From IMG/VR virus record IMGVR_UViG_3300047666_000451, positions 1 through 22,809 of that record: a DNA stretch of 22,809 nucleotides; one strand, written 5' to 3'. Positions 2,849-21,518 of the stretch are shown here, in pieces. The position numbers and the translations under genes are program-made. Source of the stretch: a virus. How positions within the stretch are numbered: the stretch's first letter is position 1; each line of letters starts with the position of its first letter. A model generated the notes under the pieces. That model was not told the DNA's origin. It saw only the letters and a list, made by a program, of their open reading frames with translations, and did no database searches.

Positions 2849-3027
2849 CACCTAAGCAGAAATATGACGAACGTAAAAGACTACGCTCAGAGCGTTTACT
2901 ACGACACGAGCAAACCGCAGCAGATAACTGGCAAGAGTCAAAAGACATGGAAGCTCGTTTGGAAACACTTATGATTTCTTTTGAGCGTATCGCTGATGTT
3001 CTAGAACTTTGGGCTGACCAGCAATGA
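2845..3027 (+). CDS. small charged helical protein, 60 aa
   Basis: The ATG overlaps the deaminase stop (ATGA) and has AAGGA at 2831-2835 with good spacing. The product is almost entirely helical and highly charged (residues 2-30 rich in Lys, Arg and Glu), with a heptad-like second half around FERIADVLELWADQQ. A small coiled-coil or adaptor protein is plausible. The family is not recognised. Confidence 0.75.
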   Translation: MTPKQKYDERKRLRSERLLRHEQTAADNWQESKDMEARLETLMISFERIADVLELWADQQ

Positions 3028-3200
3028 CACAACTTGAGGAGGACCTAGCAGCATCCTTACAAGATCTGATTGACAAAGTTGAAGATATCAGGGGTGTAGA
3101 TATTCATGTTTATGCGGGCGGGGAGATTACTAGGGCAACCGCTCTTGTAAGCTTGCATGAAGCAGAGAAACTTAAACGAAATGCAAGGATAAAATACTGA
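3024..3200 (+). CDS. small hypothetical protein, 58 aa
   Basis: ATG 3024 overlaps the previous stop (ATGA), and the frame is open to TGA 3198-3200. The product begins MTQLEEDLAASLQDLIDKVE (amphipathic acidic helix), continues with a short beta-like stretch IHVYAGGEIT and ends KRNARIKY. The last six residues and the following start region are duplicated at the end of the next gene, where the protein is otherwise unrelated. No motif suggests a function. Confidence 0.7.
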   Translation: MTQLEEDLAASLQDLIDKVEDIRGVDIHVYAGGEITRATALVSLHEAEKLKRNARIKY

Positions 3201-3205
3201 TGTCA
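3179..3205 (+). repeat. junction repeat A, copy 1
   Basis: This is the first of two identical 27-base copies (the other is 3412-3438). It spans codons for the last residues NARIKY, the AAGGA Shine-Dalgarno, the TGATG stop/start overlap and the first codons of the next gene (ATGTCA). The copies bracket gene 3200-3433. Confidence 0.9.
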
Positions 3206-3433
3206 AAAGCCTACAATGGTAATGGAGTTGAAACACCTGAGTTCCGTATTCACAACCAAAAGTCAAGGGATACTTTAGTAAAGTTAGTTGACCAGTTAAT
3301 GTCGCTTGGATACTCTGGGCAAGATGTTAGTTACTTTTTGTGTGGGGTAACTCAGCTAAGGGTATCAAGTAACAATATTACTACAGTATTAAGGCGTAGA
3401 ATAGAAGAACAAAATGCAAGGATAAAATACTGA
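3200..3433 (+). CDS. small hypothetical protein in repeat-flanked cassette A, 77 aa
   Basis: It starts at ATG 3200 (TGATG overlap, AAGGA upstream) and ends at 3433 in another TGATG overlap. The product is mainly helical and basic at the C-terminus (VLRRRIEEQNARIKY); the region at residues 22-45 (RDTLVKLVDQLMSLGYSGQD) resembles a short helix-turn-helix, though no DNA-binding family is recognised. The gene is precisely bracketed by a 27-base direct repeat that includes its own start and the start of the next gene, suggesting gain as a single-gene unit. Function unknown. Confidence 0.75.
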   Translation: MSKAYNGNGVETPEFRIHNQKSRDTLVKLVDQLMSLGYSGQDVSYFLCGVTQLRVSSNNITTVLRRRIEEQNARIKY

Positions 3434-3438
3434 TGTCA
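3412..3438 (+). repeat. junction repeat A, copy 2
   Basis: Second identical copy of the 27-base junction sequence at 3179-3205. It again encodes NARIKY, a Shine-Dalgarno, TGATG and the Met-Ser start, here serving gene 3433-3663. Confidence 0.9.
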
Positions 3439-3663
3439 CCAATCACAACACTTCACTTAAAAAACACCCTGTTCAGCAGCAAGCAAGCCTGTCAAATTAG
3501 TATCCGAAACCCTGATGGAGAACTTGAATACTGCATGGTAAAGAGTTATGACGAAGACAACGATGTCTTTGAGGTTGTGCTGTTAGATGGTAAATCTGGG
3601 GCAGAAGTTGCCTACAGTGAACTCTACGGTGACACCTCCTATGACTATGAAATTGTAGTGTAA
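3433..3663 (+). CDS. small acidic hypothetical protein, 76 aa
   Basis: The start lies in the second copy of the junction repeat (AAGGA, then TGATG). The product has alternating beta-like strands (CQISIRNPDGELEYCMVKS and DVFEVVLLDG) and an acidic, Tyr-rich end (ELYGDTSYDYEIVV), compatible with a small beta-barrel. It is the last gene before the first phage promoter copy. The family is not recognised. Confidence 0.75.
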   Translation: MSPITTLHLKNTLFSSKQACQISIRNPDGELEYCMVKSYDEDNDVFEVVLLDGKSGAEVAYSELYGDTSYDYEIVV

Positions 3664-3665
3664 AT

Positions 3666-3687
3666 AATACTGCCGACTAATGACTAA
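3666..3687 (+). promoter_or_regulatory. putative phage RNA polymerase promoter, copy 1
   Basis: The core AATACTGCCGACTAATGAC lies in the gap between gene 3433-3663 and ssb, and recurs exactly at 14205 and 21519, also in gaps. Aligned to the T7 promoter it matches AATAC at -16 to -12, C at -9, ACTA at -6 to -3 and G at +1 (base 3682). That start point would give a 61-67 base leader for ssb. Recognition by the polymerase at 106-2298 is inferred. Confidence 0.85.
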
Positions 3688-3748
3688 GGCTTTACGCCGA
3701 TGTGGTCACAATATAACAAATTAGAATCCTAGAAAAGGAAATATGAAC

Positions 3749-4390
3749 ATGGCACTTATTAAAAACGTAGAACTTTGGTGGGTCAAGTGCGATCCCGATG
3801 CTCCTGTAAAGAGCAAAGATGATGACAAACCAGATTACTGGGAAGTTCAAATTCGAACTACAGACAAGGCTTCTGCCCTGAGCTGGAAGAAAAACAATGT
3901 GAACTTCAAACCACTAAAGAAGCTTATACGTGATGAAGATGGAGAACCTATTCTTGATGAAATGGGTGAAAAGACGCGAGAGCAAGTTGTAAATGATGAG
4001 GGAAAACCTTATTTCTCTGTTAGCTTGCGTCGTAAGATTACTAAGAAAGACGGCGGTGATATGAAACCCGTCAAGGTTGTTGGCAATGGTTTCCCATTGA
4101 ATCCAAATACTGTTGGTAATATGTCTATTGGTAATGTAAGTATTTTTCAATATGACTACGTATTCCAAGGCACAGAAGGTGTTGCTTCTATGCTTACTGG
4201 TATCCAGCTTACAAAGTTGCTTGAGTACACGCCTAGTGATGGTGATGAGTTTACTGAAGAAAAAATGGAAACGGTGCCTGAGGCGAATGGAGAAACCACT
4301 CCTGCCGCTGATACAGCACCGAAAGGCAAGGCTAAACCTAAGCCTAAAAAGACTGTTGAAGATGAAATGGACGATGAAATCCCATTCTAA
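3749..4390 (+). CDS. ssb: single-stranded DNA-binding protein, gp2.5-like
   Basis: Coats ssDNA during phage replication and recombination and docks replisome partners through its tail. ATG 3749 (MALIKNVELWW, 213 aa) is preferred because AAGGA at 3735-3739 is nine bases away; ATG 3743, two codons earlier, is only three bases from it. The N-terminal and middle region (to about residue 160) is beta-rich with many aromatics and a Gly/Asn-rich stretch (NTVGNMSIGNVSIFQYDY), as expected of a phage OB-fold SSB. A low-complexity linker of Thr, Pro, Ala and Lys follows, and the protein ends in DEMDDEIPF, an acidic tip with terminal Phe like E. coli SSB. It has its own promoter upstream and a strong terminator downstream, fitting high, separate expression. 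Confidence 0.9.
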   Translation: MALIKNVELWWVKCDPDAPVKSKDDDKPDYWEVQIRTTDKASALSWKKNNVNFKPLKKLIRDEDGEPILDEMGEKTREQVVNDEGKPYFSVSLRRKITKKDGGDMKPVKVVGNGFPLNPNTVGNMSIGNVSIFQYDYVFQGTEGVASMLTGIQLTKLLEYTPSDGDEFTEEKMETVPEANGETTPAADTAPKGKAKPKPKKTVEDEMDDEIPF

Positions 4391-4405
4391 GCTAAAATAA
4401 CAATT

Positions 4406-4433
4406 GGAGAACCTGTAGTGGGTTCTCCTTTTT
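4406..4433 (+). terminator. intrinsic terminator after ssb
   Basis: GGAGAACC (4406-4413) pairs perfectly with GGTTCTCC (4421-4428) around a seven-base loop, followed directly by five T. This is the clearest intrinsic terminator in the window. It would uncouple ssb from the following small genes or create an mRNA 3' end that stabilises ssb message. Confidence 0.9.
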
Positions 4434-4454
4434 AACCTTTTTAGGAATAATAAT

Positions 4455-4811
4455 ATGAGTATTTGGGAATTTGAAGAAGGCTGCTTAAAACCATCTTTGT
4501 TGAAGGTTGGAGACAGGCTACAGGTAAAGTCTCAGGAAAGGCTTTTCAAAGTTTTTGGAGATAATTGGAAAGAGTTTATACAAGGTGATGAAAGAGGTTG
4601 TTTAGAATATCTACTTCCAGAGCCTCTAAAACCTCTTGACATCCTTATTGTTCAGGAGATTAAGCAGAGGATCTACGATGATTCTGCTAACTACATACCT
4701 ATCCTGTTTCATGACAATAATAGGGTGTTCTGGTTTATCTGTGATAATGAAGATTATAACAGTGATAACATTACCTTTAATGAAATGTTTGATGTTTTAG
4801 AAACAAATTAA
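4455..4811 (+). CDS. hypothetical protein, 118 aa
   Basis: First gene after the ssb terminator, with AGGA at 4443-4446. The product is acidic with a beta-rich, aromatic core (IPILFHDNNRVFWFICDNEDYN at about residues 80-100). Residues 15-35 (LLKVGDRLQVKSQERLFKVF) look like a small barrel entry. There is no membrane segment, Cys cluster or nucleotide-binding motif. The family is not recognised. Confidence 0.75.
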   Translation: MSIWEFEEGCLKPSLLKVGDRLQVKSQERLFKVFGDNWKEFIQGDERGCLEYLLPEPLKPLDILIVQEIKQRIYDDSANYIPILFHDNNRVFWFICDNEDYNSDNITFNEMFDVLETN

Positions 4812-4824
4812 AAGAGAATAAATT

Positions 4825-4992
4825 ATGATGATTACTTCAAATGGCCTACATATTTATGAGCAGCAGCTTCACAGAGATTATCCAACAAGGATACTAACTT
4901 TAAATCGGGCTGCTTTTGTATTCCCCGATATGGTTGCCGAAGAAATTGCTGAAGTACTAAACAAACATTATTATGGAAACAAAAATGTATAA
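4825..4992 (+). CDS. small hypothetical protein, 55 aa
   Basis: It opens at ATG 4825 (a second ATG follows at once at 4828) behind AGAG at 4813-4816 and runs to TAA 4990-4992. The product starts MMITSNGLHIYEQQLHRDYP and ends in a short helix FPDMVAEEIAEVLNKHYY. It overlaps the next gene by 20 bases. It resembles no family I know, but the spacing, frame and overlap match the other small genes here. Confidence 0.6.
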   Translation: MMITSNGLHIYEQQLHRDYPTRILTLNRAAFVFPDMVAEEIAEVLNKHYYGNKNV

Positions 4993-5584
4993 AGATGATG
5001 TGCCTTCTATTCGAGACTTTGTATTTAACACTGGTCCAAAAGGCCTTGACAGTCTGTTCTACTTTGTTATCGGGTCAATCCGCGTGAAGTTCCTTACCCT
5101 GCCAGATGTGACTAACTCACTCATTGAGGAAGGTCTGCTATCTCGTCATTGTTGGGGTAACAAGATTACCGCCTACGAAGACTACAATATGATGGACAAA
5201 GACAAGTTCATGTCAGACGTCCAGAACTCCGCAAAGAGCACCGTATCGCTATCACAGGAGCTATCTGATATCCGTGGCATCGGTATTACCAAGGCGTCTT
5301 TCTTCTTGCAACTCCTAGGGCGTGACACAGCTTGTTTGGATGTGCACAACCTAAAAAAGCTTGGATACAATTCTAAGAAGTTTTCTAAGCGGGATAGTGC
5401 TGAAGAATACCATGAAACTGTGAATGTGGAGGGCAGTGAGTACTGGTGGGATAACTGGTGTGAGACTATCTACAAAGGCTACCCAAACCACTTTAGCAGT
5501 GCAGAGGAAATTTCTAAGTTTCACCTTGCAATTATCAATCAAGAAGTAACGGAAAGCTTTAAAAAGAAGGAAATGACAGTATGA
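4973..5584 (+). CDS. HhH-GPD DNA glycosylase-like protein
   Basis: Probable DNA base-excision or abasic-site lyase-like protein of the endonuclease III superfamily. The 203-aa product carries DIRGIGITKASFFLQLLG from residue 99, a helix-hairpin-helix, followed by TACLDVHNLKKLGY. Lys107 in GITKA and Asp123 in CLDVH match the positions of the catalytic Lys and Asp of endonuclease III (K120 and D138 in E. coli), 16 residues apart here and 18 there. No four-Cys iron-sulfur motif is seen, and the length is near endonuclease III's 211. The start may be ATG 4973 or 4985; neither has a strong Shine-Dalgarno. Substrate is unknown; phage repair or attack on modified host DNA are both possible. Confidence 0.65.
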   Translation: METKMYKDDVPSIRDFVFNTGPKGLDSLFYFVIGSIRVKFLTLPDVTNSLIEEGLLSRHCWGNKITAYEDYNMMDKDKFMSDVQNSAKSTVSLSQELSDIRGIGITKASFFLQLLGRDTACLDVHNLKKLGYNSKKFSKRDSAEEYHETVNVEGSEYWWDNWCETIYKGYPNHFSSAEEISKFHLAIINQEVTESFKKKEMTV

Positions 5585-5775
5585 TGACGATTATTCTAAC
5601 AGCACTTTGGCTAACCGGGACAGGCATTCTCAGTGTACTTACTTTGCTGTGTCTATCTTTTACAATAACAGATATAGTTAACAGAGACGGTATTGGAGCC
5701 TTAATTGGTTCGGCATTTACGGCTTCCTTTGCGTTCCTTACTGTAGTATCTGTCCTTTTGGGAATGGGGTTGTAA
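5581..5775 (+). CDS. small inner-membrane protein, two TM segments, 64 aa
   Basis: The start overlaps the previous stop (ATGA), with AAGGA inside AAGAAGGAAATG upstream. Hydrophobic segments cover about residues 3-27 and 38-63, separated by a short polar loop (TDIVNRDG), giving a helical hairpin in the cytoplasmic membrane. No lipobox, catalytic residue or holin-specific feature is visible. It sits among early accessory genes rather than lysis genes, so superinfection exclusion or a host-membrane effect is possible but unproven. Confidence 0.75.
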   Translation: MMTIILTALWLTGTGILSVLTLLCLSFTITDIVNRDGIGALIGSAFTASFAFLTVVSVLLGMGL

Positions 5776-6008
5776 TGAGTTTATTTGTTGAAGTTTACGT
5801 TGGCAGCAAAGACAACCGCATACTAATTGCTGAGTCTGTTGCCCACAACGTTTCTAATCTAGCTGACACATCTGACTATAAGTTTACTACAACAGAGTTC
5901 GGCAACCTGTCTCTTGGTATTGTTCCTAGTGTAATGGTAAGTGAGATTAAAGGACATAAACGCAAGCAGTCTGTTTGGAACTTGGTTGCAAAAATGATTA
6001 AGGATTAG
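5775..6008 (+). CDS. small hypothetical protein, 77 aa
   Basis: TAATG overlap with the upstream membrane protein gene. The product is soluble, with beta-like strands at the start (MSLFVEVYVGSKDNRILIAE), a polar middle and a basic helical end (KGHKRKQSVWNLVAKMIKD) that could bind nucleic acid. No family is recognised. Confidence 0.7.
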   Translation: MSLFVEVYVGSKDNRILIAESVAHNVSNLADTSDYKFTTTEFGNLSLGIVPSVMVSEIKGHKRKQSVWNLVAKMIKD

Positions 6009-6013
6009 CAAGA

Positions 6014-6190
6014 ATGAAAACAATCTTTGAAGACGACCAAGTTCTTATAGAAGGGCCAGACAGGGAAGGTGATATTCGAATAAGTGTAGCTAACGACTTA
6101 TCTTGGGTAGATGCACGGGCCTTTCTAGACGCCTGTGATGTGGCAAGAGTTTCTTTTGATAAAACCATGGAGGAGTATGATGAAAAGTAA
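6014..6190 (+). CDS. small acidic hypothetical protein, 58 aa
   Basis: ATG 6014 follows the previous stop by five bases, and the frame runs to TAA 6188-6190. The product begins MKTIFEDDQVLIEGPDREGD and ends in a long acidic helix (SWVDARAFLDACDVARVSFD, then TMEEYDEK). A strand-turn-strand-helix pattern is plausible. It overlaps the next gene by 11 bases. Function unknown. Confidence 0.6.
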   Translation: MKTIFEDDQVLIEGPDREGDIRISVANDLSWVDARAFLDACDVARVSFDKTMEEYDEK

Positions 6191-6332
6191 ATTTATCGGG
6201 GTTAGTGATGAGCAGCTGCTAAAGGAAAGAAGCAACTTAGCTAGACGCCTTTCTGCTTGCCGAGGTGCGCTAACTGATTTAGAAGCCGAGATTTTTAATC
6301 GTAAAGTTAAGGATAGCTACAATGAAGAATAA
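6180..6332 (+). CDS. small helical protein, 50 aa
   Basis: The frame is open from 6135, but ATG 6180 (or the adjacent ATG 6177) is chosen because GGAGGAG lies at 6169-6175 directly upstream. The product MKSKFIGVSDEQLLKERSNL continues as a heptad-like charged helix (ARRLSACRGALTDLEAEIFN), a likely short coiled coil. It overlaps the deoxyribosyltransferase-like gene by 11 bases. Function unknown. Confidence 0.65.
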   Translation: MKSKFIGVSDEQLLKERSNLARRLSACRGALTDLEAEIFNRKVKDSYNEE

Positions 6333-6777
6333 GCATAAAAACCACACGTATTTGGCTGGCCCAATGGAAGATGTTTCCGTTGATCACATGACAAGCTGGC
6401 GAACCGCTGCATCAGAACGACTTGATGCTGCTGGAATTGACTACCTTGACCCAACACGTCGAGTGTCTTTTCACGATCAACTAAAAGGTGTAGATTACCT
6501 TCAGGAAGTTGTTAAGGGTATGAATATCTGTAAACGTATCTTTAAGCAAGATCTTGAAGATATCGCCAATTCCAAGGTTATGCTGGTTGACGCTCGCCGT
6601 TCTTCTGGCAAAGGCACTGGTACAGCTATGGAAACTATGTTTGCTCACACTAAGAACAAAATCATTATTCTCTGGTGTGACCCTGAAGACCCACCTCACC
6701 CGTTCTATGAGGCAATGTATTCAGAGAAGCACTACACACTTGAGGATGCAATTGATGCTGTGTTGGAGTATTACTGA
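6322..6777 (+). CDS. nucleoside 2-deoxyribosyltransferase-like protein
   Basis: This family moves or hydrolyses the deoxyribose of nucleosides or nucleotides (base exchange or N-glycosidic cleavage). The 151-aa product begins with TYLAGPMEDVS (residues 9-19), the family's first strand and Gly-Pro turn, then DPTRRVSF. A second half reads NSKVMLVDARRSSGKGTGTA then METMFAHTKNKIIILWCD; the Glu of METMFA is the likely catalytic Glu and the Asp of VMLVDA lines the site. Length matches single-domain members (about 140-160 aa). AAGGA lies upstream at 6309-6313. In this phage it could salvage deoxyribose or hydrolyse host or modified nucleotides alongside MazG and RNR. Family fairly sure; substrate unknown. 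Confidence 0.8.
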   Translation: MKNKHKNHTYLAGPMEDVSVDHMTSWRTAASERLDAAGIDYLDPTRRVSFHDQLKGVDYLQEVVKGMNICKRIFKQDLEDIANSKVMLVDARRSSGKGTGTAMETMFAHTKNKIIILWCDPEDPPHPFYEAMYSEKHYTLEDAIDAVLEYY

Positions 6778-7235
6778 TGTTAATTGTCAGAAACTCTGAA
6801 AAGTTTCCTACCTCCTTTGTGAGAGGTGTAAAGCCTAAAGTAAGCTGTATGACAACGGCCTACAAACAACTTGCTACAAGGAAAGGCCTTCAGGGTGGCA
6901 CCTACTCTGTTTACCAGATAACCTTAGACTGCCACTCAGGTATCAAGCAAGGGTATATTGGTGTTACTCCTTTAACAATGTACGGGGTTTTCTACCGTTA
7001 TATGATAGAAGCTTACCTTGCTTCCCTTGGGAAGGCCCCACACAGGAGCGTTTACGACTACCTTTGGCAGTACAACGGCAGTGTTATAGTTAAGTGTCTG
7101 CAGTGGGGTATGATTGAGCAGGAAGCTTATGATCTTGAAAAGACGCTTAGACCTGAAGATAACCCTAATAAACAAGATGGTTACAATTGGAATATGAAGG
7201 CAGGAGGAAAGAATGTCAAAGACAAAAGCAAATAG
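6777..7235 (+). CDS. GIY-YIG-like nuclease domain protein
   Basis: Probable small endonuclease of the GIY-YIG fold. The start is in a TGATG overlap; the product is 152 aa. Residues 43-46 (YSVY) and 60-62 (YIG in GYIGVT) fit the two signature strands, followed by Arg74 in FYRYM where the family has its conserved Arg, and Glu-containing EQEAYDLEKTLRPED where the metal-binding Glu is expected. The end GYNWNMKAGGKNV resembles the WN..GG tail of many phage GIY-YIG proteins. There is no extra DNA-binding module as in classical homing endonucleases. The first 24 residues precede the domain; an internal ATG at 6849 is possible. Assignment rests on motif order only. Confidence 0.55.
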   Translation: MLIVRNSEKFPTSFVRGVKPKVSCMTTAYKQLATRKGLQGGTYSVYQITLDCHSGIKQGYIGVTPLTMYGVFYRYMIEAYLASLGKAPHRSVYDYLWQYNGSVIVKCLQWGMIEQEAYDLEKTLRPEDNPNKQDGYNWNMKAGGKNVKDKSK

Positions 7236-7503
7236 ATTTCCCATGACTGGGCAACAGCTTGACGACCTCTACGAAGAACGTGCAGTTATCTTTGAGGCTA
7301 ATAGCGATGTAAGCCTTTGGGAAGTTGGAAACCAAGCAGCACAGAGTATTGGCTTTGATAACAAGTTAACCCTCAAAGCTGCGGTTCAGAGTAGGAAGGC
7401 ACAGGAGTCAGAGGAGTATTGGCAAGCAGATGATGAACCTTGCTGCTGGTGTAATGATGAACCCGGAGAAGACCCTTGCTGCTTTTGTGGGAGGGATTGC
7501 TAG
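7213..7503 (+). CDS. small protein with Cys-rich C-terminus, 96 aa
   Basis: A strong AGGAGG precedes ATG 7213, which lies 23 bases inside the upstream gene. Residues 1-75 are helical and acidic. The last 20 or so residues (DEPCCWCNDEPGEDPCCFC, then GRDC) hold seven cysteines in CxxC-like pairs, a probable zinc knuckle. The next gene also begins with a Cys cluster. A protein-protein or nucleic-acid-binding role is possible; no family is recognised. Confidence 0.75.
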   Translation: MSKTKANRFPMTGQQLDDLYEERAVIFEANSDVSLWEVGNQAAQSIGFDNKLTLKAAVQSRKAQESEEYWQADDEPCCWCNDEPGEDPCCFCGRDC

Positions 7504-7959
7504 ATGGGTGATGTATACATGAGCGGGATTGCCTGTAGAGGCTCTTTTGCTTTAGGAAATGCTTGCAGAAAATGTAGTAGGTGTTTGGCTGAAATCAAAC
7601 GGTGGGAAGCAGCACAATCAGTACACTCTGCATTAAACACACCTTCAAGTGCTTTAAAAGAAATTAGAGATTTGAAGGCAAAAGTAGTAGAGCTTGAAAA
7701 GGAACTTTCTGCACCTAATTCAAACATAAGTGCGCTTTGTAAACAACTTGCGAAAGTCACGAAAGAAAGAACTGACGCAAAAGCAAAGTTAGAAGAAGCG
7801 TTTCAAGCGGGAAGAGAATCTACTGTCAAAGATGTTATCTGGATCCATAGTGAGTATGATGTAATCAGTCCTGGGATTTTAAGATCAGAGCTTGATAAAG
7901 TTTATGAAGACCTAATCGCTAATCGGGTTCCACTTACAGAAAATAAGGAAAACAAATGA
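7504..7959 (+). CDS. Cys-motif and coiled-coil protein, 151 aa
   Basis: It starts immediately after the previous TAG, with GGGAGGG at 7489-7495 (an in-frame ATG at 7519 is an alternative). Residues 10-27 (ACRGSFALGNACRKCSRC) carry four Cys in a zinc-finger-like arrangement. From about residue 50 to 105 there is a continuous heptad-rich coiled coil (EIRDLKAKVVELEKELS, then KQLAKVTKERTDAKAKLEEA). A combined zinc knuckle and coiled coil suggests a dimeric adaptor. The C-terminal ...PLTENKENK is part of a junction repeat. Function unknown. Confidence 0.75.
   Translation: MGDVYMSGIACRGSFALGNACRKCSRCLAEIKRWEAAQSVHSALNTPSSALKEIRDLKAKVVELEKELSAPNSNISALCKQLAKVTKERTDAKAKLEEAFQAGRESTVKDVIWIHSEYDVISPGILRSELDKVYEDLIANRVPLTENKENK
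7932..7948 (+). repeat. junction repeat B, copy 1
   Basis: ACTTACAGAAAATAAGG is repeated exactly at 8303-8319. In both places it encodes LTENK near a gene's C-terminus, in the same frame, and supplies the Shine-Dalgarno for a following ATGAGTAA start. The pair brackets gene 7956-8336. Confidence 0.8.
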
Positions 7960-8336
7960 GTAATTTACACACAATCGTTGGTAAGACACCAACACACATT
8001 TCCCAATCAGAAGATGAAATTGTCATGACTTTCTCAGACAACAGTGAAGGTAGGTTTTACCATGACCAAGACTGTTGTGAGGATGTATGTGTCGATGATG
8101 TAAATGGTGATTGGGATGACCTGATTGGAAATCCAATTCTAGTTGCTGAAGAAAGGTGGAACGATGAACCAGAAGAAGGCTGTTCAGGTAGGGATGAAAG
8201 CAATACTTGGACATTCTACACCTTCAGGGGTATTGACGGCTCTGTAGATGTGCGCTGGCATGGTTCTTCAAATGGATACTACTCTGAATCGGTTACTTTC
8301 AAACTTACAGAAAATAAGGGAACAACGAATGAGTAA
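7956..8336 (+). CDS. DUF7448-like phage protein, 126 aa (cassette B)
   Basis: The ATG overlaps the previous stop (ATGA) with AAGGA at 7945-7949. The product shows the recurrent phage pattern FYHDQDCCEDVCVDDV (residues 34-49), DDLIGNPILVAEE, then TWTFYTFRGIDGSVDVRWHG and SNGYYSES. I associate this with DUF7448, which has no known biochemical role to my knowledge. Paired Cys-Cys and many acidic residues could bind a metal. The gene is bracketed by a 17-base direct repeat covering the ends of the upstream gene and of itself, so it looks like a single-gene insertion. Family assignment is from memory of the pattern. Confidence 0.75.
   Translation: MSNLHTIVGKTPTHISQSEDEIVMTFSDNSEGRFYHDQDCCEDVCVDDVNGDWDDLIGNPILVAEERWNDEPEEGCSGRDESNTWTFYTFRGIDGSVDVRWHGSSNGYYSESVTFKLTENKGTTNE
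8303..8319 (+). repeat. junction repeat B, copy 2
   Basis: Exact second copy of the 17-base repeat at 7932-7948. After the repeat the two copies differ by a two-base indel and then agree again at ATGAGTAA, the start of the following gene. Confidence 0.8.
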
Positions 8337-8796
8337 AGAAGATAAATTTCACGGTGATTTTGGTTCTATGACACCAGAGGAACAAGACGCTGTTATCAAC
8401 CCAAAACACTATAAGATACTCTCTGCAGCTACCATGCTACTGTTCCTCAAGACAGGGATGGAATACATGGATATTATGAGATACGCCTTGTCAAAGCACA
8501 AAGGTGTTATTGCTCACGTTCTTGGTCAGGTATTCAAATATTCTTTCCGCTTGGGTGGCAAAGACGACGCCCTGCAAGATGCTAAGAAGATTGCTTGGTA
8601 TGGTAACCGACTGGTTGAAGAGATTGAGTTTGAGCGAGGTATTACTAAGGTAGAGCCTCGTGGCGAGTATTCAGCAAAAGAAGATCTAACAGCTGAACAG
8701 ATTAAAAGGTTAGCGAGTGGCCAAAATGTTATTGTCGAAGTAAAAGAGGAAGGCGTACGGTTTATGGACGGTTCTACTAGTAGTGTGCTGTATTGA
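8329..8796 (+). CDS. DUF3310 / T7 gp1.7-like protein (possible nucleotide kinase)
   Basis: ATG 8329 overlaps the previous gene by eight bases and has AAGGG at 8316-8320, giving 155 aa; the reading frame is open farther upstream without a supported start. Residues 22-27 (INPKHY) followed by HVLGQVFKYSFRLGGKDDAL and DAKKIAWYGNRLVEEIE match the DUF3310 layout (NPxHY, then a KY..R.G.K..D..KA.WY helix pair). This domain is found in T7 gp1.7, a nucleotide kinase acting on dTMP and dGMP, so dNMP phosphorylation is a reasonable guess. It sits directly upstream of, and is translationally coupled to, the DNA polymerase gene. There is no P-loop, as in gp1.7. The C-terminal 50 residues are not recognised. 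Confidence 0.65.
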   Translation: MSKEDKFHGDFGSMTPEEQDAVINPKHYKILSAATMLLFLKTGMEYMDIMRYALSKHKGVIAHVLGQVFKYSFRLGGKDDALQDAKKIAWYGNRLVEEIEFERGITKVEPRGEYSAKEDLTAEQIKRLASGQNVIVEVKEEGVRFMDGSTSSVLY

Positions 8797-10754
8797 TACT
8801 TGTATTTGACACAGAAAACAACAACCTTCTAAGACACGTTACAACTTACCACTGTGCTGGGGCTATTGATGTGACCACAGGAAAGGAGTACTGGTTTCGG
8901 CCTCACCAATTTAAAGAGTTTCTGGCCTTTCTTGATAGTGCTGATACAATTGTTGCTCACAACTCTAATGGGTATGACGTTCCAGCTCTTGAGAAAATAT
9001 CAAGGATCTCAGGTTTTAAGTGGAAACCAAAGGCCTCAGTCCGGTGTACTAAGGTAATGTCTCAGGTTCTTAACTTTAACAGGTTTGGCTTTGGACACTC
9101 TTTAAAGAAATGGGGTCTGTTCTTTGAGGAAGAAAACAAGGTTAGGCTGAGTAAGGCTATCCGAATGGGCAACAAAGCCGTGGCAGATGAATGCCGTGAG
9201 CTTATTGGTACTTTTTACAAAGGTGACTACACAGGTGGCTTTGACGAGTTTTCTGAAGAAATGTTTGAGTACATGAAGCAGGACGTTCGACTTGGAACAC
9301 TTGTCTACCTGTATTTGATGAAAGAACTTAAGCGTTATCTTAAGGTTATCCAAGACAACTCTATGCCTCGCGCTCTGACATCAGAAACCAACATGGACTA
9401 TGTTATGGCAAAACAATCAGAAAACGGTTGGTTGTTTGATAGGGAAGGCGCTGTAGATCTTCAGGTTGTTATTGAGAAGAAACTTAGGGAGATTGAGAAT
9501 TACGTTAACCCCTTCCTACCTCCAACAATAAAAGTTGTGGACGCAGACACTACTATTGATAATGAAAAAACAACAGGTAAACGTTATGCAGTCACAAAAA
9601 TGCCAACTTACACGAAAGCAGGAAAACTTGCTGCATACACTAGCCGTTGGTTTGGGCTTCCTGATGACACCACTGTTGATACTAGCCCTTTCTTCCGGGA
9701 ATCTGGTGGCTTTTGCAGGATTGAGTTTACTGATGGTGATATTGGCAACACTGCTACGGTTAAGCAGCACCTTACTTCAATCGGCTGGAAGCCGGACGAG
9801 TGGAACTTCAAACGAATCGATGGAAAATTCGTAAAGGTTTCAGCTAAGCTGTCTGACACTTCTTTGCAACCTCTTGGGGACATGGGTAAGGCCTTGATGG
9901 ACTACTACACCCTGCGCTCTCGTAACTCAATTATTAGTGGTTGGTTTGATCACATTGATGACAAAGGTCGTCTTCACGGTGATGTGTTTAACATTGGTAC
10001 ACCAACTTACAGACAAACTCACAAAATTATTGCTAACTTACCTTCTGGTAAGGCTGTGCTTGGTCGTGAGTTCAGAAGCTTGTTTATCACACCAGAAGGT
10101 ACTAAGTTAGTTTCCGCTGACTCCGCTGCCTGTCAGTTACGTCTACTGGCTCACTTTATGGGTGACCCTGAGTTTATGAGGGAAGTTCTTGAGGGTGACA
10201 TTCACCAGAAGAACGCTGATATTCTCTCTGCAATTGTTGGACAAACAATTTCTCGTGCTGATGCAAAACCCTTTATCTTTGCTTTCCTGTACGGTGCAGG
10301 TGGTGCTAAACTTGCCAGTATTCTTGGTATCTCTGAAAAGATTGGCGCAAGGCTTAAAAAGAAGTTTCAGGAAGCTTACCCAATGCTTGACGAGCTTATC
10401 AAGGCAACTCAAGACGAAGCTGAGATTAGTGGATTTATTGTTGGCCTTGACGGTCGCCCAATCTACTGTGACAGTAAGCACAAGGCACTTAACTACCTTA
10501 TCCAAGGTGCCGAAGCAGTTGTAATGAAGTATACTGTCCTTGAGATTGAAAAGCAGTTTGAGCTTCAGAACGTTGATAACAAAATCCTTCTATTTTACCA
10601 TGACGAGGTAACTTATGAAGTGGTGGATGAACAAGCTGAATTTGCTAAAGAGATTATTATGAAGGCCTTTGTGGAAGCACCTAAGGCTGTCGGAGTTGAT
10701 ATTATGACTTGTGGAGATTGTAAGATAGGTATTGACTACTTTGATGTTCACTAA
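8793..10754 (+). CDS. T7-like family A DNA polymerase with 3'-5' exonuclease
   Basis: Replicative polymerase, 653 aa (T7 gp5 is 704). The start is TTG 8793, overlapping the upstream stop (TTGA); the product opens MILVFDTENN. Exonuclease residues are Asp6 and Glu8, Asp62 in HNSNGYDVPAL and Asp164 in YMKQDVRLG. Polymerase motif A is DSAACQLR (Asp443), motif B is RADAKPFIFAFLYGAG (Lys492, Phe496, Tyr500) and motif C is YHDEV (Asp604, Glu605). Two changes from T7 are notable: the motif A Glu that acts as sugar/steric gate (T7 E480) is Gln448, and T7 Tyr526 is Phe496. The segment between exonuclease and polymerase domains (about residues 225-375) aligns with T7 around TVKQHLTSIGWKPDEW. Function is certain; whether host thioredoxin is used is not. 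Confidence 0.97.
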   Translation: MILVFDTENNNLLRHVTTYHCAGAIDVTTGKEYWFRPHQFKEFLAFLDSADTIVAHNSNGYDVPALEKISRISGFKWKPKASVRCTKVMSQVLNFNRFGFGHSLKKWGLFFEEENKVRLSKAIRMGNKAVADECRELIGTFYKGDYTGGFDEFSEEMFEYMKQDVRLGTLVYLYLMKELKRYLKVIQDNSMPRALTSETNMDYVMAKQSENGWLFDREGAVDLQVVIEKKLREIENYVNPFLPPTIKVVDADTTIDNEKTTGKRYAVTKMPTYTKAGKLAAYTSRWFGLPDDTTVDTSPFFRESGGFCRIEFTDGDIGNTATVKQHLTSIGWKPDEWNFKRIDGKFVKVSAKLSDTSLQPLGDMGKALMDYYTLRSRNSIISGWFDHIDDKGRLHGDVFNIGTPTYRQTHKIIANLPSGKAVLGREFRSLFITPEGTKLVSADSAACQLRLLAHFMGDPEFMREVLEGDIHQKNADILSAIVGQTISRADAKPFIFAFLYGAGGAKLASILGISEKIGARLKKKFQEAYPMLDELIKATQDEAEISGFIVGLDGRPIYCDSKHKALNYLIQGAEAVVMKYTVLEIEKQFELQNVDNKILLFYHDEVTYEVVDEQAEFAKEIIMKAFVEAPKAVGVDIMTCGDCKIGIDYFDVH

Positions 10755-10771
10755 TAACAAAGGAAATTCTA

Positions 10772-10987
10772 ATGAAAAGACTGGCAAACAAGTCTACTAG
10801 GGTCTTTGGTCTTGATCACAAACAAAGAGGCCTTGACCATGATAAAAGTGGTGTGCCTAACCAAAACCGTATGAGGGCTATGACAAAGGAACAAATTCTC
10901 CAATACATTAAAATCTATCGATCGGACATAACAAAGGAAGACATCATTAATTTTATTTTAAAGGATACAGATAATGCTTGCCATTAA
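10772..10987 (+). CDS. small basic hypothetical protein, 71 aa
   Basis: Good AAAGGA at 10759-10764 before ATG 10772. The N-terminal half is basic and polar (KRLANKSTRVFGLDHKQRG), with Asn and Pro around residue 30. The C-terminal half is a helix pair (TKEQILQYIKIYRSDITKE, then DIINFILKDTDNACH). It lies between the polymerase and ligase genes and overlaps ligase by 14 bases. Family not recognised. Confidence 0.7.
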   Translation: MKRLANKSTRVFGLDHKQRGLDHDKSGVPNQNRMRAMTKEQILQYIKIYRSDITKEDIINFILKDTDNACH

Positions 10988-11900
10988 CAAACCAATGTTG
11001 GCCGACAACTCAGGTTGGCACCCAGAACTAGTCAAGGCCAACTTACCCTTGCTTGGTTCTATTAAACTTGACGGTATCCGTATGCTTGTTGACAACGGCA
11101 TTGGGTACTCTCGCTCTCTTAAACCTCTGCGAAACAAACAACTTCAAGCCAAGGTTGCTGCAGAGGCAGACACCCTCCAAGGCTTTGATGGAGAAGTCGT
11201 TGTTGGTAACTTCACCGATGAATTTTGCTTTAAGAACTCTTCCCGTGCTTGTGTTAAAACAGACCTTGAAGCAGAGCACAAATTCTATGTATTTGACAGA
11301 TGGGATATGAAGTGTGAGTATACAAGACGCCTTAGTGCTGTGAAAAAAGACTTAGAGATGTTCCCTTCAGATTTTGCTCAGTTCCACGGCTCTGCCCTTC
11401 TACACACCTACGATGAAGTTATGGAGTTTGTTGAAGAGTTACTACAAGAGGGTCACGAAGGGGCTATTTTTCGTCGTAGTGATGCGCCTTACAAGAATGG
11501 GCGGGCCACTGCTAAATCAGGTGGTATGTACAAATACAAGTCTCGTGTAGACACTGAAATTGTTGTAACAGGCTTCTTTGAAATGCTAGTAAACAACAAC
11601 CCAAAAACAACAAACGAGTTGGGCCGCTCTTCGCGATCAATTCATAAAGAGAATATGATTCCTGCAAACACCCTTGGTTATATCGAAGGTACAGGCTTCT
11701 TTGAGGACGGTACTCCATTTAAGACCAAAGTGGGAGTATTTAAGGGCTTTACTAAAGCAGATCTTCAAAACATTTGGGATAAAAAGGAAAAGTTCCTTGG
11801 TAAGCTCATGAAGATCAAGTACATGGGTGTGGGTTCTGACCTTGCACCACGAACACCTGTTGCCTTAGGGTTTCGGGATGAAATTGACACAAGTGATTAG
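10974..11900 (+). CDS. ATP-dependent DNA ligase
   Basis: Seals nicks between Okazaki fragments, using ATP through a lysine-AMP intermediate. ATG 10974 has AAGGA at 10961-10965. In the 308-aa product Lys31 in KLDGIR is the adenylated lysine (motif I). Further motifs are FDGEVVV, YVFDRWD (motif III), EGAIFRR (motif IV) and MYKYKSR (motif V). The rest (from about residue 205) is an OB-fold-like domain ending LAPRTPVALGFRDE. T7 ligase has 359 residues, so this is a compact form. It is adjacent to the polymerase rather than, as in T7, in the early region. Assignment is secure. Confidence 0.95.
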   Translation: MLAINKPMLADNSGWHPELVKANLPLLGSIKLDGIRMLVDNGIGYSRSLKPLRNKQLQAKVAAEADTLQGFDGEVVVGNFTDEFCFKNSSRACVKTDLEAEHKFYVFDRWDMKCEYTRRLSAVKKDLEMFPSDFAQFHGSALLHTYDEVMEFVEELLQEGHEGAIFRRSDAPYKNGRATAKSGGMYKYKSRVDTEIVVTGFFEMLVNNNPKTTNELGRSSRSIHKENMIPANTLGYIEGTGFFEDGTPFKTKVGVFKGFTKADLQNIWDKKEKFLGKLMKIKYMGVGSDLAPRTPVALGFRDEIDTSD

Positions 11901-11916
11901 GGATTGGTAAGATAAA

Positions 11917-12159
11917 ATGCAGACAGTTGAATATGACAAACAAGGGGCTTTGATTACCGCACTTTGCCCTGAAAATAAAAATGAAGATGTAGAAGTACAC
12001 CTAAACAACGATGGGACTGTAATCATTACTCAGTACAGTTTGAAAAATGGTCCCCAAGCTGTTTCTATGACAGCCAACCACTTTGTAGACTTGTTTGGTT
12101 CTTTTAAGAAAATTGAAGAAGTAAGGAATTTAGGAAGGAAAAGAAATGAGTCTGTTTAA
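11917..12159 (+). CDS. small hypothetical protein, 80 aa
   Basis: First gene of a block of small unknowns. ATG 11917 has weak Shine-Dalgarno support (GGTAAG). The product has beta-like strands (VEVHLNNDGTVIITQYSL at about residues 25-42), then a helix and a basic tail (RNLGRKRNESV). It overlaps the next gene by 14 bases. No family is recognised. Confidence 0.7.
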   Translation: MQTVEYDKQGALITALCPENKNEDVEVHLNNDGTVIITQYSLKNGPQAVSMTANHFVDLFGSFKKIEEVRNLGRKRNESV

Positions 12160-12547
12160 AGAAGGCGACATAGCACTGAAAGTAAGTTACCCAAGATTTA
12201 ACGGAGTGAGAGGCTTTGCAACTGTTGAAATTGGAAAAGTCCACAAGACAGGTAGGCTTACCCTAATTGGTGATAAAGCTCAGTGGTCCTTAACAAAGGG
12301 TTTTAGAGACGAGCCTGACTTCTTTACACTTGCATCAAGAGACGCCTATGGAAACACAAGGCTGTATCCAATGTGTAAAGAAGTGGTTGCAGAAATTATG
12401 GCTGAGCGTAGTGCTCATAGAGACCACGTTAAGCTAAGGAAAGTTGGTGAAGCTCTTTCTAGGGTTCGCTGTGTGGAAGAGGCAAGTGCTCTTTGGGAAG
12501 TTATGCCAAGAGTGTTTAAGGACTTAATTTTGGAAAAGGAGAAATAG
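12146..12547 (+). CDS. hypothetical protein, 133 aa
   Basis: AGGAAGG upstream of ATG 12146. The N-terminal half is strand-rich (GDIALKVSYPRFNGVRG, then ATVEIGKVHKTGRLTLIG), like a small SH3-type or OB-type barrel. The C-terminal half is helical and basic (KEVVAEIMAERSAHRDHVKL, then EEASALWEVMPRVFKDLILE). A barrel plus helix layout would suit protein or nucleic-acid binding. The family is not recognised. Confidence 0.72.
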   Translation: MSLFKEGDIALKVSYPRFNGVRGFATVEIGKVHKTGRLTLIGDKAQWSLTKGFRDEPDFFTLASRDAYGNTRLYPMCKEVVAEIMAERSAHRDHVKLRKVGEALSRVRCVEEASALWEVMPRVFKDLILEKEK

Positions 12548-12549
12548 TT

Positions 12550-12741
12550 ATGTTACCTTGGTTACTCATTATTAACAGCCATGATGTATCTTGCGAGTGG
12601 TTTGAAACAAAGAGTGAGGCATGTGTAAGAGCTATGGAAATGAAGGGTTGTCATTGTGAGGTAATTGGTGTAGTTAGTGTTAGGAACTTTGTAGAAGGTA
12701 AGAAAGTATCATCTTTTAATTTGGAGACTAAAAATGACTAA
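12550..12741 (+). CDS. small hypothetical protein, 63 aa
   Basis: Strong AAAAGGAG at 12535-12542 before ATG 12550. It starts with MLPWLLIINSHDVSCEW, hydrophobic but too short for a convincing membrane anchor, and has four Cys (KGCHCEVIG in the middle). Overlaps the next gene by eight bases. Function unknown. Confidence 0.65.
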   Translation: MLPWLLIINSHDVSCEWFETKSEACVRAMEMKGCHCEVIGVVSVRNFVEGKKVSSFNLETKND

Positions 12742-12961
12742 GACTAGTGGAACACAAACAGCTCCTAAAGAACGACACACAAATTTAATGAAGGCTGGTG
12801 ACGTTATGTTGTGTACTCACAGTGCCTCCTTTGCTTACGTGGCTGGGACAAAGTACACAGTTTACAACAATGATAAAGGTTGGGCTTGTATGAAAGGTAA
12901 GGACGGTCTGGAAGATATTTGCAGTATGTTGATCAGTAGTTTTAAGAGGGTTTCAAAATGA
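12734..12961 (+). CDS. small hypothetical protein, 75 aa
   Basis: ATG 12734 is preceded by GGAG at 12722-12725. After a polar N-terminus the product reads as a small beta-barrel (AGDVMLCTHSASFAYVAGTK then YTVYNNDKGWACM), resembling SH3-like phage proteins that open with a KAGDV.....F..GK.Y.V pattern. It overlaps the next gene by ATGA. Role unknown. Confidence 0.68.
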   Translation: MTKTSGTQTAPKERHTNLMKAGDVMLCTHSASFAYVAGTKYTVYNNDKGWACMKGKDGLEDICSMLISSFKRVSK

Positions 12962-13152
12962 CCGATCTACATCTAGACGGGATGACACCACAGAAAGTTA
13001 TCCGTATGATGAAGGATATCATAAACAGGGCGGTTCACAAAGATAAGCAACACCTAATAATCCAAGAGCGAGAGGAAACTTACGGAAACCCTTTTTGTCA
13101 GAACCCTGATAAAGTTTTGTATGTAACCACAACGGGAGAGAAAACAACATGA
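12958..13152 (+). CDS. small hypothetical protein, 64 aa
   Basis: ATGA overlap with the previous gene. The N-terminal half is an amphipathic helix (TPQKVIRMMKDIINRAVHKD) and the C-terminal half is polar and beta-like, ending VTTTGEKTT. The GEKTT tail, the Shine-Dalgarno and the next start are duplicated at the end of the following gene. Function unknown. Confidence 0.68.
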   Translation: MTDLHLDGMTPQKVIRMMKDIINRAVHKDKQHLIIQEREETYGNPFCQNPDKVLYVTTTGEKTT

Positions 13153-13157
13153 GTATG
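13132..13157 (+). repeat. junction repeat C, copy 1
   Basis: This 26-base segment recurs at 13494-13519 with one mismatch (A/G at 13146 versus 13508). It encodes the C-terminal GEKTT, contains GGGAGAG as Shine-Dalgarno and ends in the start codons ATGAGTATG. The copies bracket gene 13149-13514. Confidence 0.9.
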
Positions 13158-13514
13158 CGTGACCAGATTATTAGCATCATAGAAGACAACAACGTGGGGG
13201 AGCTAAATCGAGAGAGGGTGGACATAGATGCAGCAGCCGACGCTATCCTAGCCGCCCTGCCCTCAATGACTGCGCCGCTGGTTTGGAGAGAAGGTGAAAC
13301 ACTACACGAAACCTATGTAGTCCGTTTAGATGGGCGTAGCTATCTAGTGGAGTGGGGCTTCTACGGCTGGGCATCAACCTACTATGTTAACGGACAATTG
13401 CAGCCAGTTGATCTTGGTCAACGGCACCCAACCCGCGAACAAGCCAAAGCCGCAGCCAACACCCACCACCGCGACGCTATGATAGCGGCGTTTACGGGAG
13501 AGAAAACGACATGA
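13149..13514 (+). CDS. G+C-rich hypothetical protein in repeat-flanked cassette C, 121 aa
   Basis: The product starts MSMRDQIISIIEDNNVGELN and contains AADAILAALPSMTAPLVW, a pattern common in phages of higher-G+C alphaproteobacteria as far as I recall. It ends in a helix rich in Ala and His (REQAKAAANTHHRDAMIAAF) and GEKTT. Base composition is unlike its neighbours: about 55% G+C counted over 13201-13500, against roughly 40-47% in adjacent genes. The gene is bracketed by a 26-base direct repeat covering both gene junctions, and both ends are ATGA overlaps. Together these point to recent gain from another phage. Function unknown. Confidence 0.78.
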   Translation: MSMRDQIISIIEDNNVGELNRERVDIDAAADAILAALPSMTAPLVWREGETLHETYVVRLDGRSYLVEWGFYGWASTYYVNGQLQPVDLGQRHPTREQAKAAANTHHRDAMIAAFTGEKTT

Positions 13515-13519
13515 GTATG
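13494..13519 (+). repeat. junction repeat C, copy 2
   Basis: Second copy of the repeat at 13132-13157, 25 of 26 bases identical. Here it closes the inserted gene with GEKTT and starts the MazG gene with the same Met-Ser-Met codons. Confidence 0.9.
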
Positions 13520-13798
13520 AACCTAGAAGTATACAACAAAATTGCCTTGGACTTTCTAGAAGAAGGTACAACAGACGAGCACTTGTTTGTTGGCTTTGCT
13601 AGTGAAGCTGGGGAGGTTATGCAAGAGCGGATGCTAGAGGTTCGTAAAAGTGAAAATTGTACTGTTCCTATTGTGCAAGAACTTAGTGACGTACTCTGGT
13701 ATATTACAGTAATTGCCCACAAGAGAGGATACACCTTGTCAGAGCTTATGACTTACAACATAAACAAGCTCAGTGACCGTGAACTTAACCCTAAGTGA
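13511..13798 (+). CDS. MazG-like nucleotide pyrophosphohydrolase
   Basis: Small all-alpha NTP pyrophosphohydrolase that converts (d)NTPs to monophosphates and may lower ppGpp or remove non-standard nucleotides. The 95-aa product shows the MazG signature: SEAGEVMQE (Glu32, Glu35) and, 22 residues on, ELSDVLWY (Glu57, Asp60), the four magnesium ligands, then a helix HKRGYTLSELMTYNINKL. Length is typical of phage single-domain MazG. The start lies in the second copy of junction repeat C and the gene is immediately followed by junction repeat D, so MazG sits between two probable cassettes. Substrate preference cannot be read. Confidence 0.88.
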   Translation: MSMNLEVYNKIALDFLEEGTTDEHLFVGFASEAGEVMQERMLEVRKSENCTVPIVQELSDVLWYITVIAHKRGYTLSELMTYNINKLSDRELNPK

Positions 13799-13815
13799 GG
13801 AACAAACTATGGTAC
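13799..13815 (+). repeat. junction repeat D, copy 1
   Basis: GGAACAAACTATGGTAC recurs at 13968-13984 as GGAATAAACTATGGTAC (16 of 17 identical). It contains the Shine-Dalgarno and the Met-Val start codons, and the copies bracket gene 13809-13967. Confidence 0.75.
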
Positions 13816-13967
13816 AACCAACTACAGAAGCATATTGTGATAACCAAGACACTACTGACAAAGAAACAATAGCTCGATACAAAATGGCGCTAGAGGCAAT
13901 CATTTTAGTAAGTAGCAGCACTGCTGTAGTACTCGCTAAGAGAGCATTGTATGATAAAACTAGGTAA
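13809..13967 (+). CDS. small hypothetical protein in repeat-flanked cassette D, 52 aa
   Basis: ATG 13809 is chosen over an upstream in-frame ATG (13773) because it has GAGGA at 13797-13801 and sits in the junction repeat, the same context as the next gene's start. The product has a polar N-terminus (QPTTEAYCDNQDTTDKETI) and one hydrophobic helix (MALEAIILVSSSTAVVLAKR), possibly a membrane or packing helix. It is bracketed by a 17-base repeat. Function unknown. Confidence 0.65.
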   Translation: MVQPTTEAYCDNQDTTDKETIARYKMALEAIILVSSSTAVVLAKRALYDKTR

Positions 13968-13984
13968 GGAATAAACTATGGTAC
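13968..13984 (+). repeat. junction repeat D, copy 2
   Basis: Second copy of the 17-base repeat at 13799-13815, with one C-to-T difference. It supplies the Shine-Dalgarno and start of gene 13978-14181. Confidence 0.75.
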
Positions 13985-14181
13985 CTATGAGTGAAGAAAT
14001 CAAAGAATGGATTGACACAGCGACCTATGAGCAGCTATTATGGCAGTGGCGATTTGCAGATCTTGGTAACGATCTTTTTAGCAAGGAACATGAAAGCTCA
14101 GATTACTTTGTAAAGATTATGAAAGAAAAGCGATTTTCAGATGGAGCGCATGCCACTGCATCCAAGGCTGTTGGATGGTAA
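13978..14181 (+). CDS. small conserved-type phage protein, 67 aa
   Basis: AAGGA at 13967-13971 precedes ATG 13978. The product shows a pattern I have seen in many phage hypothetical proteins: a helix TYEQLLWQWRFADLGNDLF, then YFVKIMKEKR and a C-terminal AHATASKAVGW. No biochemical role is known to me. It is the last gene before the second phage promoter copy. Confidence 0.72.
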   Translation: MVPMSEEIKEWIDTATYEQLLWQWRFADLGNDLFSKEHESSDYFVKIMKEKRFSDGAHATASKAVGW

Positions 14182-14204
14182 CTACAAGTAAACTAAGGAC
14201 GAAA

Positions 14205-14226
14205 AATACTGCCGACTAATGACCAA
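14205..14226 (+). promoter_or_regulatory. putative phage RNA polymerase promoter, copy 2
   Basis: Exact second copy of the 19-base core (see 3666), in the 69-base gap before the exonuclease gene, with predicted start G at 14221. One base after the core differs (ACCAA versus ACTAA). It would drive the exonuclease, GIY-YIG, primase-helicase and RNR group. Confidence 0.85.
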
Positions 14227-14250
14227 GACTTAACAGGAGACCAACTATAA

Positions 14251-15111
14251 ATGATTGCATTAATTGATGGAGACCCACTAATTTATCAAGCTTACTGGCA
14301 TGTTAAACGAACTTATGAGACATACCTGAAAAAGCTTAAGAAGCGTTTCACTGATGGTGAGATTGATGAAGAACACTATAATGGACAGCTAGTTTTGGCT
14401 GAGAAGTCCTTTGCTAAAAATGGTTTTGCTAAAGCTAAAATTAACATGGACATGTTGCTAGAGAACATCTTAAATGAGTTGTTTGTTGATGAGTATGCTA
14501 TTGCTGTTGGTGGTGTTGGTAACTACCGACTTGATATCCACCCTGAGTATAAGGCATCAAAGACACGGGCTGCTGTTCGAAGCAGTAAACCTGTATGGTT
14601 TGATGATCTAAAAGACTACCTCGCAGCCAAAGAGGAGTCTATCTCAACAGATGGGTATGAGGCAGATGACTTGCTACGTATCTGGTCTAATGACTGTAAA
14701 CGCACTGACACTGACTACATCATTTGTTCTATTGACAAAGACTTAGACTGTATTGATGGGAAGCACTACATCAACATCCACCCAACAAAACCTAAGCACC
14801 AGTATGAGATTACAGCAGAGTACGCTGAGTGGTTCTATTGGTATCAAGTACTTATGGGCGATAATGTTGATAACATACCGGGGCTTAAGGGTTGTGGCCC
14901 AAAAACGGCAGCTAAAATCCTAGAAGATGTAGAGCCGTGTGACTACCAAAAGGCTGTCTGTATTGCTTACCACAATAAGTATGATGACCCTAAGGGTGAC
15001 CAGTATGGCTACGAAAACATGTTATTCAATGGACGATTAATTCATATCTGGCGGTCCTTTGATGATCACTTTAAGATCACAAGGGAAACGTATGATGAAG
15101 CAATCAAGTAA
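14251..15111 (+). CDS. FEN/PIN-type 5'-3' exonuclease, T7 gp6-like
   Basis: Structure-specific 5' nuclease that removes RNA primers and degrades DNA 5' ends. ATG 14251 has AGGAG at 14235-14239; the product is 286 aa (T7 gp6 is 300). Metal ligands are visible in order: MIALIDGD (Asp6, Asp8), EADDLL (Glu137, Asp139, Asp140), SIDKDLD (Asp162, Asp164) and GDNVDNIPG (Asp204, Asp207), the last leading into the helix-3-turn-helix GLKGCGPKTAAKIL. It is the first gene after the second promoter copy and overlaps the GIY-YIG gene by 20 bases. Assignment is secure. Confidence 0.95.
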   Translation: MIALIDGDPLIYQAYWHVKRTYETYLKKLKKRFTDGEIDEEHYNGQLVLAEKSFAKNGFAKAKINMDMLLENILNELFVDEYAIAVGGVGNYRLDIHPEYKASKTRAAVRSSKPVWFDDLKDYLAAKEESISTDGYEADDLLRIWSNDCKRTDTDYIICSIDKDLDCIDGKHYINIHPTKPKHQYEITAEYAEWFYWYQVLMGDNVDNIPGLKGCGPKTAAKILEDVEPCDYQKAVCIAYHNKYDDPKGDQYGYENMLFNGRLIHIWRSFDDHFKITRETYDEAIK

Positions 15112-15577
15112 CGATGAAATAGGACATTGGACCTTTTATGGTAACTTCCCTAGTTACTTTGATACCCAAGCTTACATTGGTTTTATATACTCAATTGAGA
15201 ACAAGGCTACCAACCAGTTTTACATTGGTAAGAAACAGATGAGGTATGGTGGTAAAAAGAAATCACCCCGTTATAATAAGGAAATGCCTTGGAGGTCCTA
15301 CACAGGTTCTTCTGTACACTTAAACAAAGCTATTAAGGAAATTGGTAAAGAAAAGTTTGAGTTCTTGATTATTGACCTCTACAAAACAAAAGGTGGGTTG
15401 TACTACGCAGAGGCCTACACTCAAATGATCCTTGGTGTTATGACTGAAAAGTTACCTTGTGGTGTGTTACCAAGATTTTATAATGCTCAGATTGCCGCTA
15501 TCCGCTTTGCGCCAAAAGAGGAATTAACCATTAACACTAAGAAATTTATAAGGAATTTTAAAAGGAGGTATCGTTGA
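15092..15577 (+). CDS. GIY-YIG endonuclease
   Basis: DNA endonuclease of the GIY-YIG superfamily, possibly fulfilling the role of T7 endonuclease I (which is unrelated) in the replication module. The frame is open from 15059, but AAGGG at 15081-15085 supports ATG 15092 (161 aa). GFIY at residues 30-33 and FYIGKK at 43-48 are the two signature strands; SYTGSS, a helix LNKAIKEIGKEKFEF and LYYAEAY with the likely metal-binding Glu follow. This resembles the compact Seg-like proteins seen in many phages; no separate homing DNA-binding repeat is visible, and it sits between exonuclease and primase-helicase without interrupting either. Resolvase versus homing role is open. Confidence 0.75.
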   Translation: MMKQSSNDEIGHWTFYGNFPSYFDTQAYIGFIYSIENKATNQFYIGKKQMRYGGKKKSPRYNKEMPWRSYTGSSVHLNKAIKEIGKEKFEFLIIDLYKTKGGLYYAEAYTQMILGVMTEKLPCGVLPRFYNAQIAAIRFAPKEELTINTKKFIRNFKRRYR

Positions 15578-21510: not shown

Positions 21511-21518
21511 GGCATGAA

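Follow-up and report, generated by a model that had tools for sequence, protein, structure and literature searches.

Duplicated gene joints around single genes at four loci of one phage genome, probable traces of one-gene insertion

The window, by which we mean the whole stretch of DNA analysed, corresponds to one complete IMG/VR record (22,809 bases). Pfam searches placed a single-subunit RNA polymerase, an ATP-dependent ligase and a 5'-3' exonuclease in the window, which also encodes a family A DNA polymerase; from similarity of gene order, further genes were read as a putative primase-helicase and ribonucleotide reductase. The best DNA polymerase matches among deposited phages were those of roseophages DSS3_PM1 and DSS3_VP1 (Naomviridae, 47-49%), and a DNA-level search of deposited phages returned no close match to the window. 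Relatives were IMG/VR contigs found by scanning with the DNA polymerase and the exonuclease. These comprised a closer group (L029, complete as L004; L028; L027; L005/L030; L036), ~82-95% identical over most shared blocks, and the more distant L031, L033 and L042. Gene calls came from a simple gene caller, and the relatives are metagenome contigs from few samples.

Single genes at four loci, A to D, are bracketed by direct repeats that lie at gene joints, with the following layout.

3179-3205, + strand: pair A, left copy (27/27); tail of gene 3024-3200 (NARIKY and stop), Shine-Dalgarno AAGGAT and start ATGTCA
3200-3433, + strand: cassette A gene, 77 aa; tblastn relative RcXuper gp183
3412-3438, + strand: pair A, right copy; tail of the cassette A gene and start of gene 3433-3663
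7932-7948, + strand: pair B, left copy (17/17); tail of gene 7504-7959 (LTENK) and ribosome site of B
7956-8336, + strand: cassette B gene, 126 aa, DUF7448 (PF24240, Pfam E 2.6e-23)
8303-8319, + strand: pair B, right copy; tail of B and ribosome site of gene 8329-8796
12958-13152, + strand: gene Y, 64 aa, upstream of C, with the C-type tail TGEKTT
13132-13157, + strand: pair C, left copy (25/26); tail of Y, ribosome site and ATGAGTATG
13149-13514, + strand: C-type gene, 121 aa, phrog_23314
13494-13519, + strand: pair C, right copy; tail of C, ribosome site and start of the mazG-like gene 13511-13798
13786-13815, + strand: pair D, left copy (25/30); tail of the mazG-like gene, ribosome site and ATGGTAC
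13809-13967, + strand: cassette D gene, 52 aa
13955-13984, + strand: pair D, right copy; tail of D, ribosome site and ATGGTACC, the start of gene E (13978-14181)

All four pairs were present where an earlier note on this DNA had placed them. Positions 3179-3205 equal 3412-3438 (27/27) with sharp repeat edges; 7932-7948 equal 8303-8319 (17/17) and, past a 2-base indel, ATGAGTAA matches again (7956 and 8329); 13132-13157 agree with 13494-13519 at 25/26; and 13799-13815 agree with 13968-13984 at 16/17, within a longer but weaker match (13786-13815 and 13955-13984, 25/30) whose final 12 bases are identical. The A, B and C repeats form the final codons of the upstream gene with the reading frame kept, so that unrelated proteins end in common C-terminal tails (NARIKY, LTENK and TGEKTT). 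An order-2 Markov model predicts ~0.2 exact local repeats of 14 nt or more per window, compared to four seen, three at joints and one within the ligase gene. Gene starts were aligned at -35 to +15 (1176 pairs in the window), and the four most similar pairs were A to D, each between neighbouring genes. Gene-order permutation yielded 0.21 adjacent pairs with a score of at least 14 versus four observed (P = 5e-5), and the similarity was limited to consecutive genes and absent from other starts. The four repeat pairs are thus confirmed as real and not due to chance.

Other features of the window were recorded alongside. Three intergenic copies of a AATACTGCCGACTAATGACTAAGG-like sequence (3663-3695, 14202-14234 and 21516-21548), present also in relatives such as L027, L029, L031 and L033, are probably promoters of the phage RNA polymerase; they are located away from repeat pairs A to D. 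The stretch 14171-14238 is 100% identical in L029, with gene indels on either side. L027 8950-10245 and window 21517-22809 are 99.8% identical, compared to ~89% over the preceding 7.4 kb, and this near-identity is, to judge from the alignment, a recent exchange between lineages that switched near the third promoter copy. A tRNA-Ile with anticodon GAT lies at 21815-21888 (ARAGORN), and a SegE-type GIY-YIG endonuclease at 15095-15577 (Pfam E 1.3e-25); the region around the latter (14927-15583) is replaced in L005/L030.

The earlier note had proposed that the joints serve exchange of accessory genes; the D and B genes, and Y beside C, are each missing from some relatives. Four arrangements occur at locus D. 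The window has mazG-D-E, L027 has mazG-E, L005/L030 have mazG-X-E, and L028/L029 have mazG-X-D with D fused to the extreme end of E. Both anticipated configurations were therefore found here, namely a missing cassette with a single joint (L027, where the mazG tail, one joint and gene E follow one another) and a different gene, X, between the same joints (L005/L030). The single joint of L027 alternately matches left- and right-copy variants, so that insertion and deletion at D are not polarised. L027 also carries a gene, Z, with the start region of mazG duplicated exactly (65 nt) on either side; judging by this duplication, Z is a fresh one-gene insertion with a duplicated target.

At locus C, gene 12734-12961 is followed by Y and then C in the window, by C directly in L027, and by W and then C in L029. 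The gene gained or lost is thus mainly the upstream Y (12958-13152), with W or nothing as alternatives at its position, which corrects the earlier assignment of C as the bracketed cassette. C-type proteins have conserved ends, an AALPxMxAPLVW motif and a variable middle; none was found in deposited phages. Since the TGEKTT tail is native to the C-type family, Y would be the gene with the borrowed tail. L005/L030 carry two tandem C-type genes at this locus (cores z = 15.7), with gene 12734 reduced to its start. The statement that bracketed genes are unrelated to their neighbours accordingly held for all four in the window and failed for these tandem paralogues.

The cassette B gene is missing from L029. 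In L033 it stands behind a gene 7213 that is truncated, and in L042 it divides that gene in two. Exchange at the B joint did not follow the predicted pattern: L029 lacks the gene and has a joint unlike the pair B repeat. Conservation of the DUF7448 core ends at YYSESV; beyond it, each relative has its own tail (LTENKGTTNE in the window, SGNNKKKGSQ in L033, SFKNAK in L042), with other tails again in Sulfitobacter, Sinorhizobium and Bacillus phages. The window tail LTENK is that of the upstream neighbour; these alignments show a tail that is non-conserved and, by its match to the neighbour, evidently borrowed. The protein of window 7213-7503 has a cysteine-rich C-terminal part (DEPCCWCND) that in L033 (331-486) is a small frame of its own behind the RNA polymerase and in L042 (11099-11754) is severed by the DUF7448 gene. 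Comparison of window 6014-6332 with L029 1493-1669 further revealed that gene 6014-6190 is gone from its place in L029, yet its 3' end occurs there in fusion with the terminal part of the following gene; the partners of tail and start joint have thus changed.

The cassette A gene aligned with Rhodobacter phage RcXuper gp183 (tblastn 38.8%, E 8e-5) over residues 1-67 of 77. The alignment stops before the repeat, the tail of A is not common to both, and the NARIKY tail is therefore apparently foreign to the family; the cassette A gene probably carries a borrowed tail. L033 contains a counterpart of gene 3433-3663 (alignment score 71 versus a shuffle maximum of 45) that is preceded by a different gene. 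Scans with the RNA polymerase for relatives spanning locus A, and with gene A and the exact joint A pattern across IMG/VR, found none.

In pairwise comparisons among the relatives, 25 gene indels (gains or losses) were catalogued, not all of them independent, as X was counted twice (events 5 and 17) and so was the gene near 8523/9121 (events 20 and 26). Repeats at these indels had a median length of 4 nt, measuring at most 7 nt (2-7) in 20/25 and at least 8 nt in 5/25. Unrelated start pairs have a mean of 4.2 nt in common and reach 8 nt or more in 2.2%; long joints are therefore over-represented at indels, yet dispensable. Repeats like pairs A to D are few or absent in relatives (none or one in the close ones). 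Just before the exonuclease gene, one gene is present in L029/L031, another in L005, and the joint alone in the window and L027, where its sequence looks like the deletion scar of the L005 gene.

What the loci present, then, are duplicated joints, copies at adjacent genes, gene turnover at the joints and an empty single-joint site at D. We consider the repeats to be, probably, traces of one-gene insertions at overlapping translation joints, made by illegitimate recombination or by recombination over short homology. Genes of this operon usually carry the ribosome-binding site of the next gene within their final codons, and the stop overlaps the next start. With one gene's tail doubling as the next gene's ribosome site, a harmless insertion would have to duplicate the block, which would explain both how far the repeats extend and why tails are borrowed. 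A newcomer would spare both neighbours only if the tail, ribosome-site and start block were retained on each side: the left copy would stay the upstream gene's tail and now start the newcomer, and the right copy would serve as the newcomer's tail and also start the downstream gene. The duplication step itself we infer, and later loss of a newcomer between repeats might proceed via annealing of short homology. In favour of insertion are the placement of the four best start pairs between consecutive genes, the empty site of L027, X in L005, Z with its 65-nt duplication, the variable DUF7448 tail, the relative of A aligned only up to residue 67, and the differing genes and apparent deletion scar ahead of the exonuclease gene. 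Counting against it, most indels between relatives came without a long duplicated joint (20/25 at 7 nt or less), so that duplication would be unnecessary when a newcomer brings its own ribosome site; moreover, with the C tail native and that of Y borrowed, replacement within a tandem array fits locus C better than insertion of C.

That last point touches on an alternative we regard as unlikely, in which a gene was duplicated in tandem and the body of one copy was later replaced or decayed, while both copies kept the same tail and joint. L005/L030, with two tandem C-type genes and the same joints where the window has Y and C, are what it would predict, as is the C-type tail of Y. However, no residual core similarity was detected at A, B, C or D in the window, flanking and bracketed genes being paralogues only among the C-type genes of L005/L030, and relatives display a single unrelated gene gained or lost at D and Z; the sharp repeat edges at A also argue against it. 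Far less probable is a dedicated linker system, in which the joints would be maintained recombination sites for accessory-gene exchange: the empty and alternative-gene states of D and the alternatives to Y would suit it, but the repeats are unlike from locus to locus, most exchanges proceeded without them, and no recombinase linked to the joints was identified. Long joints being over-represented without being required is itself evidence against such a system. Of the exchange interpretation in the earlier note, the presence or absence of one gene and the alternative genes thus stood, and the linker system at the translation-junction level went unsupported.

Two further explanations appear most improbable. 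Functional convergence, with the repeated block as a regulatory or translation element selected at several genes, would account for the Shine-Dalgarno and start inside the repeats and has a parallel in the start-associated repeats of Cluster K mycobacteriophages, but each pair has its own sequence and the adjacency test contradicts it, similarity occurring only between consecutive genes. An assembly artefact duplicating short sequences is conceivable for a metagenome contig, and A is known from this record only; against this, the contig L026, which comes from a different record, matches the window at 100% identity across B (window 3897-9081), both copies lie within intact reading frames, and the C and D structures have counterparts in other contigs. 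A mobile element with target duplication was rejected, as Pfam and PHROGs found no transposase, integrase or homing endonuclease in A to D. With few or no such repeats in relatives, the joints look like traces of recombination combined with selection for intact translation rather than dedicated sites.

How a single gene can enter between two overlapping genes and leave both intact is rarely seen, and four scars in one small contig, together with empty and alternative states in relatives, make the step traceable; tails common to unrelated neighbours offer a simple searchable signature of gene gain. Across 60 other loci, 15 adjacent start pairs reached the score, compared to ~1.9 expected. Several of these have other causes, namely promoters in L020, hairpins in L058, a strong Shine-Dalgarno consensus in L008, L044 and L048, and paralogues in L030; the general excess of similar adjacent starts in other phages is hence only suggestive. 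A T7 control gave one match (7608/7906), both genes lying next to annotated T7 promoters (phi1.5 and phi1.6). Joint-duplicating insertion may, tentatively, be a general route of single-gene gain in phages with overlapping genes, with shared tails recording recent gain.

The arrangement can be compared to several known systems. T4 early promoter stem-loop linkers, each an early promoter with a stem-loop, stand between exchangeable small genes; the resemblance of the window joints to them would lie in that role. Lambdoid boundary sequences are short homologies at gene borders, common to different phages and proposed to direct exchange; the window also has short homology at gene borders, but its repeats are private to each locus and mostly unused in the relatives' exchanges, 20/25 indels having 7 nt or less. 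A literature search on direct repeats with ribosome sites found no matching report. In Cluster K mycobacteriophages, start-associated sequences follow a single 13-bp consensus present at 11-19 genes (PMC3203893) and overlap the Shine-Dalgarno by the ATG as the window repeats do, whereas the window has four different pairs at neighbours only, and no single consensus at many starts. In LRRHood, 29-bp repeats surround genes 43-46 and relatives are single-copy (PMC3029335); there too a direct repeat at a gene end brackets an insert, albeit of four genes and 1.35 kb rather than one gene per pair. Closest is Island3 of Cluster I mycobacteriophages, in which genes 67/68 match over about 50-60 bp at their 3' ends (Pope et al. 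2011, PMC3029335): the extra gene ends like its unrelated upstream gene, over 18 C-terminal residues, and Brujita, without the gene, has one recombinant copy. Both cases are one-gene inserts whose 3' end copies that of an unrelated upstream gene, and this sharing of 3'-terminal DNA and C-terminal residues is seen at A, B and C and more weakly at D; an empty relative with a single recombinant copy exists for D (L027, mixed variants) and not for B, where the L029 joint differs. Island3 is one event, whereas the window holds four in a 22.8-kb contig, with shorter repeats (17-30 bp) that include the ribosome site and start. The principle is known from single cases, and the gain here is recurrence and detail: four such events in one genome are an unusually dense case of a known phenomenon.
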